A DNA stretch of 64,000 bases, from contig NZ_QQBA01000002.1 of NCBI RefSeq assembly GCF_003350545.1, positions 186,001-250,000 of the forward strand, in the 5' to 3' direction. Shown here piece by piece: positions 1,149-6,842 of the stretch (position 1 is its first letter; every line of letters begins with the position of its first letter). The notes under the pieces were generated by a model. That model was not told the origin of the DNA. It did no database searches and saw only the letters and a program-made list of their open reading frames with translations. Origin of the DNA: Flavobacterium glaciei. GTDB taxonomy: Bacteria > Bacteroidota > Bacteroidia > Flavobacteriales > Flavobacteriaceae. Made by a program: the position numbers and the translations under genes.

Positions 1149-4100
1149 ATGAAATTATTTTCGGATAATTATTTTATTACATTCAATAAACCAGGTTTTA
1201 TAATATTCTTGACAGGAATAATGTTGCAATCATGTGCGACTCATCATGCACAATTTGGAAAAGACGTAAAAAAACCAGTTATTATTAACGCGACAGATAG
1301 TTTACAAATAGCACACACCTTTTTTTTGATTGGCGATGCAGGAAATACCAATGAAAAAACGAAACAACAAAAGCTTGGTTCTCTTGAAGAAAGATTGAAA
1401 AAGGCATCAAAAAACACCACTCTTTTATTTCTTGGTGATAATATCTATCCAAAAGGATTACCAGCTGCAGAAAACACAAACGAGCGCCTTCTAGCCGAAA
1501 GTAAACTCACAAACCAACTGAAATTGTCTAAAAACTTTAAAGGACAAACTATTTTTATTCCAGGAAATCACGATTGGTACAGCGGTATAAAAGGACTTGA
1601 ACGACAGGCAAAATTTGTTACTGAATACCTCAACGATAAAAAATCATTCCTTCCTAGAAAAAGCTGTGGTATTGATGATTTAGAAATAAATAATAATCTG
1701 GTGCTAATCACTATTGACAGTCAATGGTTTCTGGAAGACTGGGATAACAGTCCCACTATTAACGATGATTGTACAATAAAAACCCGAGAGGCTTTTTTTG
1801 CTGAGCTGGAAAATCTTTTAATAAAAAACCAAGAAAAAGCAATTGTTTTAGCCCTCCATCATCCATTAATGAGTAATGGTTCTCATGGCGGCCAATTCTC
1901 AGTAATGAAACAGCTTTTTCCATTAGAGCAAAAAATTCCTCTTCCAGTCTTAGGTTCTGTTGCTAATTTTTTTCGAAAAACAAGTGGAGTAAGTCTTACA
2001 GATATTCAAAACAAACAATATACCCTTTTTATAAAAAGATTAAAAACACTTTTGCAAAGTCAGGATAATGTTATTGTTGTTTCCGGCCATGACCACAATT
2101 TACAATACATTGAAAAAGAAAATATTAAACAAATTATTAGTGGTGCGGGATCCAAATCTGAAGCTGCAAAAGCAATTTATCCCAATGATTTTTCTTATGG
2201 TCGCAGTGGATATGCCACTTTAGCTGTTTATGAAAATGGAGCCGCAAAAGTTTCTTTTTTTGGTGAGGAAAATAACAAAGAAAAACTGATTCATGAACAT
2301 ATGGTATTAAATGAAAAAGACGATTTAAATACCAAAGTATTCTCTACTACATTTCCAAAAACCATTACTTCAAGCATTTATACAATTAAACAAACTAAAA
2401 AATCTGGATTTTACAGATTCTTATTTGGAAACCATTTTCGAACATATTATAGCCTTCCAATAAATGCAACAACAACTACAATTGATACCCTTTATGGAGG
2501 ATTGCAGCCCAAACGTTCCGGAGGCGGTTATCACTCAAATACATTGCAACTTTTCGACAAAAAAGGGAGGGAATTTGTAATGCGTGCTATGAAAAAAAAC
2601 ACTTCGAGTTTCCTACAAACAGTAGCTTTCAAAAATCAGTTTATACAAGATGAATTTGAAAATACATATGCAGAAGATCTTTTGTCTGATTTTTATACTA
2701 CTTCACATCCTTACACTCCATTTGCTGTTGGGAATTTAGCTGGGAAAATTGGCGTAGCACATACTAATCCATCTTTATATTATATTCCAAAACACAGAGC
2801 GTTGAAAAATTTCAACGCTGATTTTGGAGATGAATTATACCTTATTGAAGAACGACCAACAGACAGCCAGATTGGTGTAAAAAGTTTTGGCACTCCAATT
2901 TCCATTATCAGTACGGAAGATGTAATGAAAAATCTTCACAAAGACGAAAAATATTCAGTCGATGAAAGTGCTTACATCAAAGCACGATTGTTTGACATGC
3001 TTATAGGAGACTGGGATAGGCACAAAGATCAATGGCGATGGGGCGAATATAAAGTAGGCGAAAAAGTAATTTATAAGCCTATACCTCGAGACCGAGATCA
3101 AGCTTTTCCTAAGTATGACGGTGCTTTACTGTTTGTTTTGATGAAAAAAGCAGAATTGCGTCACATGCAATCTTTTAAAGAAAAAATATCTAATGTTAAA
3201 TTGATGAACCGTGAACCATATCCTCTAGACCTTGCTTTTATAAAAAATGCTGATGAAAACGAGTGGGTCAAACAAGCAAAATACATTCAAGAAAACCTGT
3301 CAGATATAACTATTGATGCTGCGTTTTCTAATTTGCCAAAAGAAGTTCAGGACGAGACTATTTCTGATATTAAACGAAAACTGAAACTAAGACGAAATCA
3401 ATTGCATCGTTCTGCTTCAGTATATCATTCCGTGTTGCAACATACCGTTTTGATCGTTGGCACGGATAAAAAAGATAAATTTGTTATTCAAAACAACGAA
3501 AAAAATAAGCTTGAAATCCACGTATATCGTGTAACAAAAGAGACGGAAGAATTACAATACTCTAAAAGTTTCACCGCTAAAAAAACCAAAAAAATATGGA
3601 TTTATGGATTAGATGAAGATGATATTTTTGAAGTAAAAGGAAATTCAAAATCAAATATAAATATTCGATTAATTGGAGGGCAAAATGAAGATTCGTATAC
3701 AGTTGAGAACGGAAGAAAAATAAAAATTCATGACTTTAAAACAAAAAAAAATACGTACAATTTAGATTCTAAAAGTAAAGTATTACTATCTGATGATTAT
3801 GAAATGAGTTTATACAACTATCAAAAACCAAAGTACAATTCCTTTTCAGCACTACCCAATATTGGATTTAATCCAGATGACGGTATTAAACTAGGGGTTG
3901 TAACAGGTTATGTTGTCAACGATTTTAAACAAAACCCTTACACTCAGAAACACAGCCTAAAAGCTAATTATTTCTTTGCCACAAAAGGATATGAACTGAT
4001 TTACAGTAGTAATATTCCAAAATTATTTAGCAAGTGGAATTTAGATTTTGAAGGCCAATTTACGAGTCCTAATTTCACCATCAATTATTTTGGCTACGGA

Positions 4101-4883
4101 AATGAAACTGTGAATAATGATGATACTTTTGGTATGGACTTCAATCGTGTTCGTATCAAAATGTTGAAAATTATGCCATCCATTAAAAAAGTAGGCAAGT
4201 CGGGTAATATCATTCATTTTCAAACCAGTTTTGAACGAATTACCGTGGAAGAAACCATAAATCGATTTGTAGACATTTCTACCAATATAAATCCTTCTGT
4301 TTTTGAAAATCAACAATTTGCAGGCGCATCCTTGAAATACAGTTTTGAAAATTATGATGTTCCATCCTTCCCGACCATGGGAATGGGATTTTCTATTGCG
4401 GGTACATGGAAGATGAATTTAGTAGATACCAATAGAAATTTCCCTATCATTGAAAGTAAACTGAATTTTAACCATAAGATTGATGCCAACGGAAAGTTAG
4501 TTTTAGCCACAATCCTTAGAGGAAAAATGATATTGAATAATAATTTTGATTTTTATCAAGGTGCCAATTTAGGCGGTGACTATAATTTAAGAGGTTTTAG
4601 AAACCAACGCTTTTTAGGAAACCAATCTTTTTATCAAAGTAGTGATATACGCTGGAACTTTGGCAAAATAAAAAGAAGTATAATTCCTATGTCCTACGGA
4701 ATATTAGCTGGTTTTGATTACGGTAGAGTTTGGCTAAAAGGTGAAAATTCCGAAAAATGGCACCAGTCATTTGGGGGAGGGTTATGGATAAACGGACTAA
4801 ATGCATTAACGGCACGACTTACTTATTTTAAAAGTGCTGGCGAAGAAACAAGAATTGCTTTTGGTTTAGGATTTGGATTTTAA
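1149..4883 (+). CDS. Metallophosphoesterase / kinase-like / Omp85-type barrel fusion lipoprotein
   Basis: This 1244-aa protein begins with a lipoprotein signal (lipobox LQSC near residue 28). Residues about 55-375 are a calcineurin-like metallophosphoesterase: GDAGN (about 61), GDNIYP (about 97), GNHDW (about 139), HHP (about 237) and GHDHN (about 313). The last 340 residues or so look like an Omp85/surface-antigen beta-barrel, with GGDYNLRGF and a terminal GLGFGF. The middle (about 440-720) carries motifs in protein-kinase order: GGG 458-460, FVMRAMKK 476-483, LIGDWDRH 618-625 and RDRDQAF 647-653. Metallophosphoesterase-barrel proteins are known in Bacteroidota. The kinase-like reading is my inference. 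The protein is probably an outer-membrane enzyme that anchors itself through its own barrel. The gene overlaps the convergent gene at 4866-5743 by 18 bp. Confidence 0.85.
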   Translation: MKLFSDNYFITFNKPGFIIFLTGIMLQSCATHHAQFGKDVKKPVIINATDSLQIAHTFFLIGDAGNTNEKTKQQKLGSLEERLKKASKNTTLLFLGDNIYPKGLPAAENTNERLLAESKLTNQLKLSKNFKGQTIFIPGNHDWYSGIKGLERQAKFVTEYLNDKKSFLPRKSCGIDDLEINNNLVLITIDSQWFLEDWDNSPTINDDCTIKTREAFFAELENLLIKNQEKAIVLALHHPLMSNGSHGGQFSVMKQLFPLEQKIPLPVLGSVANFFRKTSGVSLTDIQNKQYTLFIKRLKTLLQSQDNVIVVSGHDHNLQYIEKENIKQIISGAGSKSEAAKAIYPNDFSYGRSGYATLAVYENGAAKVSFFGEENNKEKLIHEHMVLNEKDDLNTKVFSTTFPKTITSSIYTIKQTKKSGFYRFLFGNHFRTYYSLPINATTTTIDTLYGGLQPKRSGGGYHSNTLQLFDKKGREFVMRAMKKNTSSFLQTVAFKNQFIQDEFENTYAEDLLSDFYTTSHPYTPFAVGNLAGKIGVAHTNPSLYYIPKHRALKNFNADFGDELYLIEERPTDSQIGVKSFGTPISIISTEDVMKNLHKDEKYSVDESAYIKARLFDMLIGDWDRHKDQWRWGEYKVGEKVIYKPIPRDRDQAFPKYDGALLFVLMKKAELRHMQSFKEKISNVKLMNREPYPLDLAFIKNADENEWVKQAKYIQENLSDITIDAAFSNLPKEVQDETISDIKRKLKLRRNQLHRSASVYHSVLQHTVLIVGTDKKDKFVIQNNEKNKLEIHVYRVTKETEELQYSKSFTAKKTKKIWIYGLDEDDIFEVKGNSKSNINIRLIGGQNEDSYTVENGRKIKIHDFKTKKNTYNLDSKSKVLLSDDYEMSLYNYQKPKYNSFSALPNIGFNPDDGIKLGVVTGYVVNDFKQNPYTQKHSLKANYFFATKGYELIYSSNIPKLFSKWNLDFEGQFTSPNFTINYFGYGNETVNNDDTFGMDFNRVRIKMLKIMPSIKKVGKSGNIIHFQTSFERITVEETINRFVDISTNINPSVFENQQFAGASLKYSFENYDVPSFPTMGMGFSIAGTWKMNLVDTNRNFPIIESKLNFNHKIDANGKLVLATILRGKMILNNNFDFYQGANLGGDYNLRGFRNQRFLGNQSFYQSSDIRWNFGKIKRSIIPMSYGILAGFDYGRVWLKGENSEKWHQSFGGGLWINGLNALTARLTYFKSAGEETRIAFGLGFGF

Positions 4884-5743
4884 TTTTTTGATACTTACCT
4901 CATAAACATTCCCTCCTACGCCTTGTGTTTTTTCATCAGCAATAAAAAGTCTGTCATTATCAATAAATGAAGCGGCTTCTTTTTGCGAAAAATGATTTAG
5001 TTCGAGGGTGGTTTTTATTCCATTTAGGAAATTGTCACCTTCGAAATTTTCGAATAAAATATCTTATCGTGGGTTAAAACAACAACTTTAGACTCATCAG
5101 GGCTTATTGCAGCAGCTGTAACTGCACAATGATTGTAATTATCACAAGTTTTAAATTCTCCCAATAAAACAGCTTGATGAAAACCCGCAGTATTGGGGAT
5201 TTTGTATAAAAAAGCGGTTCCGTCAAAACCTTTGCTTCGGTTTTTAGTGAAGAGATAGAAGTTATTTTTGAATTCGAAAAAACCTTCAACATCATAGAAC
5301 ATTTCTGATTTTTTAGGAAGAAAATCTTTTTGTTCAGGGTACGCAAAAGAAATTTTATAGGCCGGAGTTGCGCTTTCAGATGTTAAAGAATTTTTATCAA
5401 TTTTATAAATACTTAAATCCCTTCTTTCATTATCATTGTTACCAAAATCTCCTATATATAAATTTCCTTCTTTGTCTTTTGTAATATCTTCCCAATCGAT
5501 ATTCTCCGTATTTTCGATGGTAATTGTTTTTTCTACGCTGCCACTTACAAAGTTCAATCCGTAAATTTCACTCGGATTACCACTATCTTCCAGTGACCAA
5601 ACTAAATTACTATCAGACAAATAAGTTATTCCTGAGACTTCTTTTAGTTTTTTAGGCAAGGAATAAACCGTTGATAAAGCTCCTGAATCTTGCTGACATG
5701 ATAAAAAAGTAAAAACCGATAAGATGAAAATATAGTTTCTCAT
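4866..5743 (-). pseudogene. Frameshifted SdiA-regulated/beta-propeller-like lipoprotein
   Basis: ATG at 5743 opens a lipoprotein (lipobox LSCQ near residue 16) that now ends early at 5024 with 239 residues. The alternative frame continues the homology to TAA at 4866-4868. Adding one T to the four-T run (plus-strand AAAA at 5056-5059) restores a 292-residue protein. The intact paralogue at 62150-63118 supports the repair: both share DWE(D/E)I, YIGDFGNN, RxDL.I..I.K.SL and a C-terminal LF....G..FF.G stretch that lies beyond the frameshift. The likely fold is a beta-propeller-like extracytoplasmic domain of unknown role. The break may be a natural homopolymer deletion or a sequencing error. Confidence 0.75.
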
Positions 5744-5774: not shown

Positions 5775-6842
5775 CTAAAAATCTGTTTTAAATAAATTTG
5801 TGTTTTTGAAGTTTCTTGTAATAAACTCAAAAGCAGCACTCATAATGTTACCCATAGATTTTGCTTTTTTAAAATTCAAATCATTTGTGTAACGGTATAA
5901 TTCTAATTGTAATTGCTTCAAATGTTCCTCCGGAGCGATTACATCATCGCCCATGATTTGTAATAATCTTTGAATACGATTCTCTGCAGAGTGTATTCGT
6001 TTAGCAAGAACCGCTCTTTCTTCATCTTTGTATTGCTCGATTGAACTGTTTTGAAGCTTGTCTTTAACCAATTTTACCATTGGATAATTTTCTTTGAAAA
6101 ATTGAGGTCGGTAGACTTTAAAATTTCCTTCGTAACACTGTTGGTCAAAATCGATGGCGCGTATTTTATATACTACATGGTCAAAATCATGTGTAGGAAC
6201 AATAACATAATTATAGGAACGCATATCGCCCAACAAGCGTATCATACATCGCTCATTGAATTTTACAAACTCTTTTGCAATTTGTGATTTTTCAGTTTCG
6301 GTGCATTCTGCCAAAAGATTTTTTATAAAAACATCGCCCGGGATTCCCATGATGTGTTCCTCTATCAAAGTGTCATTATACACTAAAAAATTTATCTTAT
6401 CCGGAGATAAAATATGCTCTAATTCTAGTCCATAAATACGAGAAGCATCTGCTTTCTTAATATAAAAATGTGTGTAATTATCATTAAGAATGTTTCTAAT
6501 TTTTATTCGAAAAGGTTTTGAATTTCCAAAAGTGCAGTAATCAATGGAATCCACATTCAAAAATTTAAGAATCCCCAAATTACCATCTGAATGCAACAGC
6601 GAATAGATTTTTTTTAGATTTAAATCAATTTCTTGTCTTTCAAATTCATTATAATACACACGTACCCATAAAGTATCCTCATCGTTTTTATCATAAACGT
6701 TGACAGAGCCTGAAAAGCGCAATAAGTCATCGTAAAAAATAGAAACCTTTGACAAACGGTCAAAACGCTCCAAGTATTCCAAAAGCGATTTATTTATTGG
6801 ATACGAAGGTTTTTTAAAAAGCATTACTGGCTCACTACTCAT
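5775..6842 (-). CDS. Conserved hypothetical protein with kinase-like motif order
   Basis: This is a 355-aa soluble protein with no signal peptide. I know similar proteins only as flavobacterial hypotheticals. Its motifs follow the order of a protein-kinase fold: a strand with lysines (HFYIKKA, K129/K130), a helix with Glu (LELEH, about 140-142), a hinge-like stretch (NFLVYNDTLIEEHI, 151-164), a catalytic-loop-like GDMRSYNY (D206, N211, spacing D-x4-N) and a DFG-like IDFDQ (D231-D233). The C-terminal 80 residues are helical and rich in Lys and Glu. Kinase activity is inference, and no canonical glycine loop is seen. It is transcribed toward the frameshifted lipoprotein with a 31-nt gap. Confidence 0.6.
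   Translation of the reverse strand: MSSEPVMLFKKPSYPINKSLLEYLERFDRLSKVSIFYDDLLRFSGSVNVYDKNDEDTLWVRVYYNEFERQEIDLNLKKIYSLLHSDGNLGILKFLNVDSIDYCTFGNSKPFRIKIRNILNDNYTHFYIKKADASRIYGLELEHILSPDKINFLVYNDTLIEEHIMGIPGDVFIKNLLAECTETEKSQIAKEFVKFNERCMIRLLGDMRSYNYVIVPTHDFDHVVYKIRAIDFDQQCYEGNFKVYRPQFFKENYPMVKLVKDKLQNSSIEQYKDEERAVLAKRIHSAENRIQRLLQIMGDDVIAPEEHLKQLQLELYRYTNDLNFKKAKSMGNIMSAAFEFITRNFKNTNLFKTDF

Follow-up and report, generated by a model that had tools for sequence, protein, structure and literature searches.

A predicted kinase-fold domain between a metallophosphoesterase and an Omp85 barrel defines an unannotated protein family of Bacteroidota

We analyzed a 64,000-nucleotide stretch of the Flavobacterium glaciei genome (assembly GCF_003350545.1, contig NZ_QQBA01000002.1, positions 186,001 to 250,000 of the forward strand; referred to as the window), near the start of which a single gene encodes a metallophosphoesterase (MPE) and an Omp85-type barrel separated by a middle domain, called KIN here. 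Structure prediction supports a protein-kinase-like bilobal fold of the HipA/CtkA/PI4K/FAM20 type for KIN, which is found in 92 of the 247 Bacteroidota genomes scanned. On balance, we lean toward a protein that is anchored in the outer membrane and faces the periplasm, in which KIN, as a new family of atypical kinases, and an opposing MPE would work together with a separately encoded HD-PycTM protein. The fusion is an intact open reading frame with all parts in one frame, and its closest relatives (73 to 87% identity) are from Flavobacterium species. Its parts are as follows (window positions, all on the plus strand).

1149-4883: whole gene, 1,244 amino acids (aa); lipoprotein signal, MPE, KIN, beta segment, Omp85 barrel
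1149-1235: signal peptide and lipobox LQS-C29, with no acidic lipoprotein export signal past the Cys, from the sequence
1281-2273: MPE, calcineurin-like/purple-acid-phosphatase-like phosphoesterase (Pfam PF00149, E = 1e-9)
2421-3413: KIN, predicted kinase-fold domain, residues 425 to 755 (AlphaFold model, Foldseek against PDB)
2520-2528: Gly-rich turn GGG, residues 458 to 460, between predicted strands 453 to 457 and 463 to 469 (alignment, AlphaFold)
2574-2597: strand FVMRAMKK, residues 476 to 483, with R479 and with K483 at the beta-3 lysine position (K483 in 28 of 29 divergent members)
2838-2858: hinge-like YLIEERP, residues 564 to 570, with E567 (27 of 29 divergent members)
3006-3041: catalytic-loop-like GDWDRHxDQWRW, residues 620 to 631, with D621, D623, and Q628 (conservation, CtkA alignment)
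3078-3107: PIPRDRDQAF, residues 644 to 653, with D648/D650 at the DFG-like metal position (each in 27 of 29 divergent members)
3414-3803: beta segment, residues 756 to 885, short regularly spaced strands, solenoid-like (AlphaFold secondary structure)
3804-4880: Omp85 barrel, residues 886 to 1244, 16 long strands, LRGF motif near residue 1147 (AlphaFold, Foldseek)

Fold of the middle domain

The earlier note on this DNA had read the region between phosphoesterase and barrel as kinase-like, from motifs following one another in protein-kinase order: GGG, FVMRAMKK, YLIEERP, GDWDRH with D623, and PRDRDQAF with D648/D650. All of these lie where it had placed them, D648 following D623 by 25 residues and D650 by 27. 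Pfam recognizes only the N-terminal Metallophos domain and the C-terminal barrel in the whole protein, NCBIfam adding a subthreshold Omp85 match, and neither database gave a family for the 280- to 330-residue middle region, whether of this protein, of 47 relatives, or of divergent members. Membership in three known kinase families was considered and rejected: neither HipA_C (PF07804) nor CotH (PF08757) matched above the Pfam gathering score, and the best match to Fam20C (PF06702; E = 0.0079, in one of the 47 members) stayed under it.

For structure prediction, we collected 80 Flavobacteriia loci and aligned 47 middle domains. The resulting AlphaFold model of residues 425 to 755 has a mean predicted local distance difference test score of 88.7 and a predicted template modeling score of 0.88, and a Foldseek search against the PDB placed Helicobacter CtkA first (E = 5.3e-6, probability 1.00), followed by PI4KII-alpha, a bacterial kinase complex, RIO2, HipT, ADCK3, Wee1, HipA, and Fam20C. 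Among the 50 matches listed, the recognizable ones are kinase folds, with no competing fold class. In the model, K483 ends the third strand, and D648/D650 come after the strand following the catalytic loop.

Profile searches point the same way. CtkA was the top of five matches when the KIN profile was compared with all PDB sequences (E = 0.014), and this match is anchored at the DRH motif of KIN, which falls on LLGNFDRHNGNW, the CtkA motif being GNFDRHNGNW; a wider KIN profile (A2) gave a CtkA match that was no better (E = 0.1, ranked second). CotH and HipA comparison sets were built from Bacteroidota genomes for profile-profile comparison with hhalign. The KIN catalytic motifs came weakly into register with those of CotH and HipA, PIPRDRDQAF aligning with the IPxDxDxTF motif of CotH, and the CotH comparison scored 31.8 bits versus 13 to 24 for decoys, which is weak. 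Together, model, fold matches, and CtkA profile match support the kinase-like reading of the middle region.

Conservation of the putative active site

D623, R624, and H625 are kept in all 77 Flavobacteriia relatives and in 45 of the 46 MPE-containing proteins phylum-wide, with K483, D648, and D650 present in nearly all of these, so that the conservation of the DRH triplet and of the second Asp on which the kinase claim leaned is upheld. Across 47 relatives, down to 43% identity, GGG458-460, R479, K483, D514, D621, W622, D623, R624, H625, D627, Q628, W629, D648, D650, and Q651 are invariant. The Gly-rich turn, beta-3 Lys, catalytic Asp, and metal Asp are thus conserved in kinase order; judged from these alignments, the motif set is not due to chance, and the putative catalytic residues are under selection. 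When the 29 divergent members were compared, D621 proved more invariant than D623. This extra invariant Asp, the unusual loop GDWDRHxDQWRW, and the Gln that replaces Asn in it would fit a KIN that catalyzes another nucleotide-dependent transfer, such as AMPylation, glutamylation, or pyrophosphorylation, as in the kinase-fold proteins SelO and SidJ. In order and spacing, however, the motifs match the phosphotransferring HipA/CtkA/CotH group, and we consider such a transfer improbable.

Motif degeneration is concentrated in barrel-fused copies of KIN without an MPE, about one-fourth to one-third of which have altered or absent motif residues, and because of these changes some of them are probably pseudokinases. 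This leads to another alternative, namely, that KIN is a kinase-fold binding module without phosphotransfer chemistry, which would sense a nucleotide or phosphorylated envelope ligand and regulate the phosphatase, the barrel, or the partner protein. Such a role would suit a periplasm in which ATP is not expected, members that keep fold and barrel with degenerate motifs, and the frequent use of the kinase fold in pseudokinases. Against it, K483, D623, R624, H625, D648, and D650 are near-invariant in MPE-fused members throughout the phylum, beyond what ligand binding usually needs, and we regard the binding module as rather unlikely.

Among side observations, clusters of two to three barrel-less KIN-beta genes occur in one genus (loci L125:3629-8648 and L124:2936-6275), some with D623 replaced by Ser. 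Omp85 proteins with a partial KIN and degenerate motifs occur at L127, L128, L201:4976-7612, and L224, and their sequences suggest decaying or repurposed copies.

Family spread and architectures

KIN occurs in four architectures: MPE-KIN-beta-barrel, KIN-beta-barrel (∼870 aa), KIN-beta (∼550 aa), and KIN alone (∼430 aa). The MPE is absent from more than 40% of the sampled KIN copies, and a tree of 82 KIN domains (46 with MPE) shows seven changes of MPE presence, at least five of them by well-supported branches. At one locus (L123), KIN-beta, MPE, and barrel are split among three neighboring genes that overlap; the kinase and phosphoesterase genes each carry their own lipobox, making the kinase a barrel-free lipoprotein. 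Because the architectures vary and MPE presence changes repeatedly on the tree, KIN is, from these comparisons, the constant core of the family, and the MPE-KIN-barrel fusion is one of several forms. A KIN-type protein of the gut commensal Parabacteroides distasonis (L304:7863-10322, WP_005858089.1, 819 aa) is annotated as a hypothetical protein.

Phosphoesterase, barrel, and membrane sidedness

The earlier note had also described an N-terminal metallophosphoesterase and a C-terminal Omp85-type barrel, and here Pfam/NCBIfam, active-site conservation, and fold search agree with it. The MPE has the motifs GDAG (D63), GDNIY (96 to 100), GNHD (139 to 142), HH (237 to 238), and GHDH (313 to 316), that is, a full purple-acid-phosphatase-type ligand set including GDxxY, and its ligands D63, D97, Y100, N140, H141, H238, H314, and H316 are kept in 72 to 77 of the 77 relatives. 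Tartrate-resistant purple acid phosphatases are the closest sequences with a solved structure (E = 7e-4). The barrel model matches BamA/TamA/Sam50 in Foldseek (E down to 8e-12), and PF03865 scores over its cutoff in the window protein, as does PF01103 in relatives; the model thereby places the barrel in the Omp85 superfamily, with a predicted 16-strand BamA/TamA fold. The alpha-beta pattern of a POTRA domain was sought in residues 756 to 885 of the AlphaFold model and not found, the segment being all-beta; POTRA-less Omp85 subfamilies have been described (PMC4104836).

A lipobox is present in 68 of the 77 Flavobacteriia relatives, none of which has the acidic surface-export signal (at least two acidic residues at +2 to +6); in Bacteroidota, the lipoprotein surface-export signal is K-(D/E)2 or Q-A-(D/E)2 (PMC5080379). 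A 16-strand Omp85 barrel would, moreover, keep the domains N terminal to it in the periplasm, and the enzyme domain of PlpD, a patatin-Omp85 fusion, has been shown to be periplasmic (PMC11116518). For these three reasons (a lipobox without export signal, an even strand number, and the PlpD precedent), we favor N-terminal domains that face the periplasm and not the cell surface. The earlier note had instead imagined an enzyme that both adds and removes phosphate and is exported to the surface by its own barrel. As a type Vd-like autotransporter, such a protein would act on extracellular phosphate esters or proteins. Bacteroidota do expose many surface lipoproteins (PMC5080379), and PlpD itself was formerly believed to be secreted (PMC11116518). 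The same three observations and the split-gene relative with its barrel-free kinase lipoprotein run counter to self-secretion, which we set aside as very improbable.

A conserved HD-PycTM partner

A gene for an HD-domain protein of ∼390 to 410 aa lies beside or near KIN in 72 of the 80 Flavobacteriia loci. The HD proteins examined from other families end in a C-terminal PycTM domain (PF18967, E down to 1e-38), and a PF18967 scan across the 247 genomes finds PycTM at the KIN-adjacent place in Flavobacteriaceae too. PycTM, usually as an HD-PycTM protein, is present in 79 of the 92 KIN genomes versus 15 of the 155 others (Fisher p = 6e-35, a value that ignores shared ancestry and thus denotes a strong association rather than a calibrated probability). 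In 58 of the 79 genomes with both, PycTM and KIN lie no more than 6 kb apart, and these cases cover 15 of 19 families. All four relative orientations of the two genes occur, so this neighborhood is more than inherited synteny. Unbiased clustering of KIN-flanking genes likewise ranked HD-PycTM first (14 families).

PADLOC models score the KIN-linked HD-PycTM proteins as PycTM/2TM defense effectors. This Pycsar label is likely an overannotation, and the strong linkage suggests that PycTM is not always a defense effector, which affects automated defense annotation. The KIN-linked HD-PycTM genes at L211:8338-9510, L198:9936-11162, L205:4967-6262, and the 72 Flavobacteriia loci are conserved like core genes. 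At two loci (L209:9277-12600 and L210:8921-11539), a class III cyclase with tetratricopeptide repeats and PycTM come after an MPE-KIN-barrel gene in the same orientation, the L209 locus also holding a further HD gene. A cyclase beside KIN and PycTM suggests a cyclic nucleotide input. A Pycsar system has a dedicated pyrimidine cyclase (PycC) adjoining its effector. The L209 cyclase, between KIN and PycTM, has weak PycC matches (E = 4e-5), and its cluster spans three families; among the ranked flanking clusters, no cyclase cluster included Flavobacteriaceae.

Other neighboring genes

Convergent to the fusion gene in the window lies one further feature:

5024-5743, minus strand: relative of SdiA-regulated/phytase-like secreted beta-propellers (Pfam matches below cutoff)

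Genes of this kind also occur in the vicinity of KIN in about 12 families. The SdiA-regulated propeller is the second-ranked flanking cluster of KIN (10 families), with a second cluster in families f1 and f2. The clusters ranked next are a GAF-type protein, PPK1, a SixA-type phosphatase, and a class III cyclase. PPK1 lies near KIN in five families by clustered flanks, and 12 to 16 kb off in one more. A direct functional link between KIN and polyphosphate kinase was considered and rejected, this proximity being suggestive and far weaker than that of PycTM. At L198, L199, and L200, KIN-Omp85 is found near a CotH kinase, a Porin_O_P protein, a PAP2 phosphatase, and SixA, with PPK1 in L199 and L200; these surroundings are a phosphate-themed neighborhood.

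A 355-aa protein at window positions 5775 to 6842 (minus strand) recurs close to this gene in 34 Flavobacterium loci at 80 to 98% identity and has no Pfam (above cutoff), NCBIfam, or PADLOC match. Its motifs FYIKKAD, LVYNDTLIEEHIMG, RLLGDMRSYNYVIV, and IRAIDFDQ resemble another kinase-type fold; as a second kinase it was rejected, since the profile comparison with hhalign was not significant.

Proposed mechanism

In the reading that we prefer, the N-terminal lipid and the C-terminal 16-strand barrel would tether both catalytic domains to the outer membrane on its inner face. Phosphotransfer is the activity that we propose for KIN, which, with its HipA/CtkA/CotH-like active site, would modify an envelope substrate with phosphate or some other group that derives from a nucleotide. 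K483 and R479 would hold the donor phosphates, D623 would act as the catalytic base, and Q628 together with D648/D650 would bind metal. The purple-acid-phosphatase-like MPE would take phosphate off that substrate or a related one, as the eraser to the KIN writer. KIN would stay as the core, with MPE and barrel added or split off by lineage, and the HD-PycTM protein, predicted in the inner membrane, and often the SdiA-regulated propeller would join it in one envelope module linked to phosphate or nucleotides. A bolder version, which we hold as tentative, has an active kinase and phosphatase in one polypeptide at this membrane face using a nonclassical donor and coupled through HD-PycTM into a trans-envelope system for phosphate signaling or modification that is core to many Bacteroidota, with Pycsar-type effectors possibly recruited from the system or the reverse.

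Several points weigh against the preferred reading. The main objection is that the periplasm and the cell exterior are thought to be devoid of ATP, so a kinase there would need an unusual donor; for this reason, the pseudokinase and alternative-transfer explanations remain. The Foldseek TM-scores of KIN are modest (∼0.4 to 0.5), and its sequence similarity to known kinases is marginal. Q628 stands where a metal-binding Asn is usual, and several MPE-less copies lack D623 or D648/D650, so the fold can serve without catalysis. The side on which the N-terminal domains lie is something we infer, and the Fisher test of the PycTM association takes no account of shared ancestry. Finally, the PF18967 scan found no PycTM match in the window's own genome; the partner is hence not obligatory.

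The analysis adds an unannotated kinase-fold family where kinases are unexpected, and it implies that a second likely enzyme is present in proteins whose label names the phosphoesterase or barrel alone or reads hypothetical protein. Given its wide spread in Bacteroidota and its almost constant association with a PycTM membrane protein, the family may be a phosphate writer and eraser inside the cell envelope, which raises the question of the identity of the phosphate donor there. To our knowledge, PycTM proteins are so far known only from anti-phage defense.

Comparison with known systems

Heinz and Lithgow (2014) described an Omp85 "Metallo" subgroup with PF00149, terming the domain a metalloprotease (PMC4104836). 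As here, PF00149 is fused N terminally to an Omp85 barrel, and the fusion protein probably belongs to this subfamily; the word kinase is absent from that paper, as are a kinase-fold domain, MPE-less relatives, and an HD-PycTM partner. The earlier note knew of no description of the middle region as a kinase, and our full-text search of open-licence literature found no paper linking Omp85 to a kinase fold (an earlier mention elsewhere is possible). A Riemerella metallophosphoesterase is listed as a type IX secretion system effector in a review (PMC10202324), and we do not equate it with this protein.

CtkA, the HipA-like Ser/Thr kinase of Helicobacter pylori (PDB 3AKJ-3AKL), is the best match by both fold and sequence, with LLGNFDRHNGNW aligned with LIGDWDRHKDQW. 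It shares only ∼12% identity, however, and is a free soluble protein without phosphatase or barrel; KIN has Gln for the metal Asn and PRDRD instead of FDCG. CotH kinases share the catalytic order, KIN DWDRHxDQWRW and IPRDRDQAF aligning with CotH NWD..NNYYLY and IPxDxDxTF, and three genomes, all of one family, have a CotH gene in the vicinity of KIN-Omp85, but KIN lacks a match to the Pfam model and differs in its N-lobe and membrane fusion. FAM20C and HipA resemble KIN in the DRH-type catalytic loop and the kinase-fold Foldseek matches and differ in architecture and compartment, KIN staying under the curated cutoffs.

PlpD likewise has an enzyme N terminal to a 16-strand Omp85 barrel, yet it combines POTRA with a patatin lipase, whereas the protein described here has a beta segment, two phosphate enzymes (KIN by prediction), and an N-terminal lipid. 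With Pycsar effectors, the system shares a PycTM domain (PF18967), carried here by a conserved partner gene. Unlike in Pycsar, an HD domain is fused to this PycTM or lies next to it, the PycTM accompanies KIN across the phylum as a core gene would, and a cyclase adjoins the partner gene only in some lineages.

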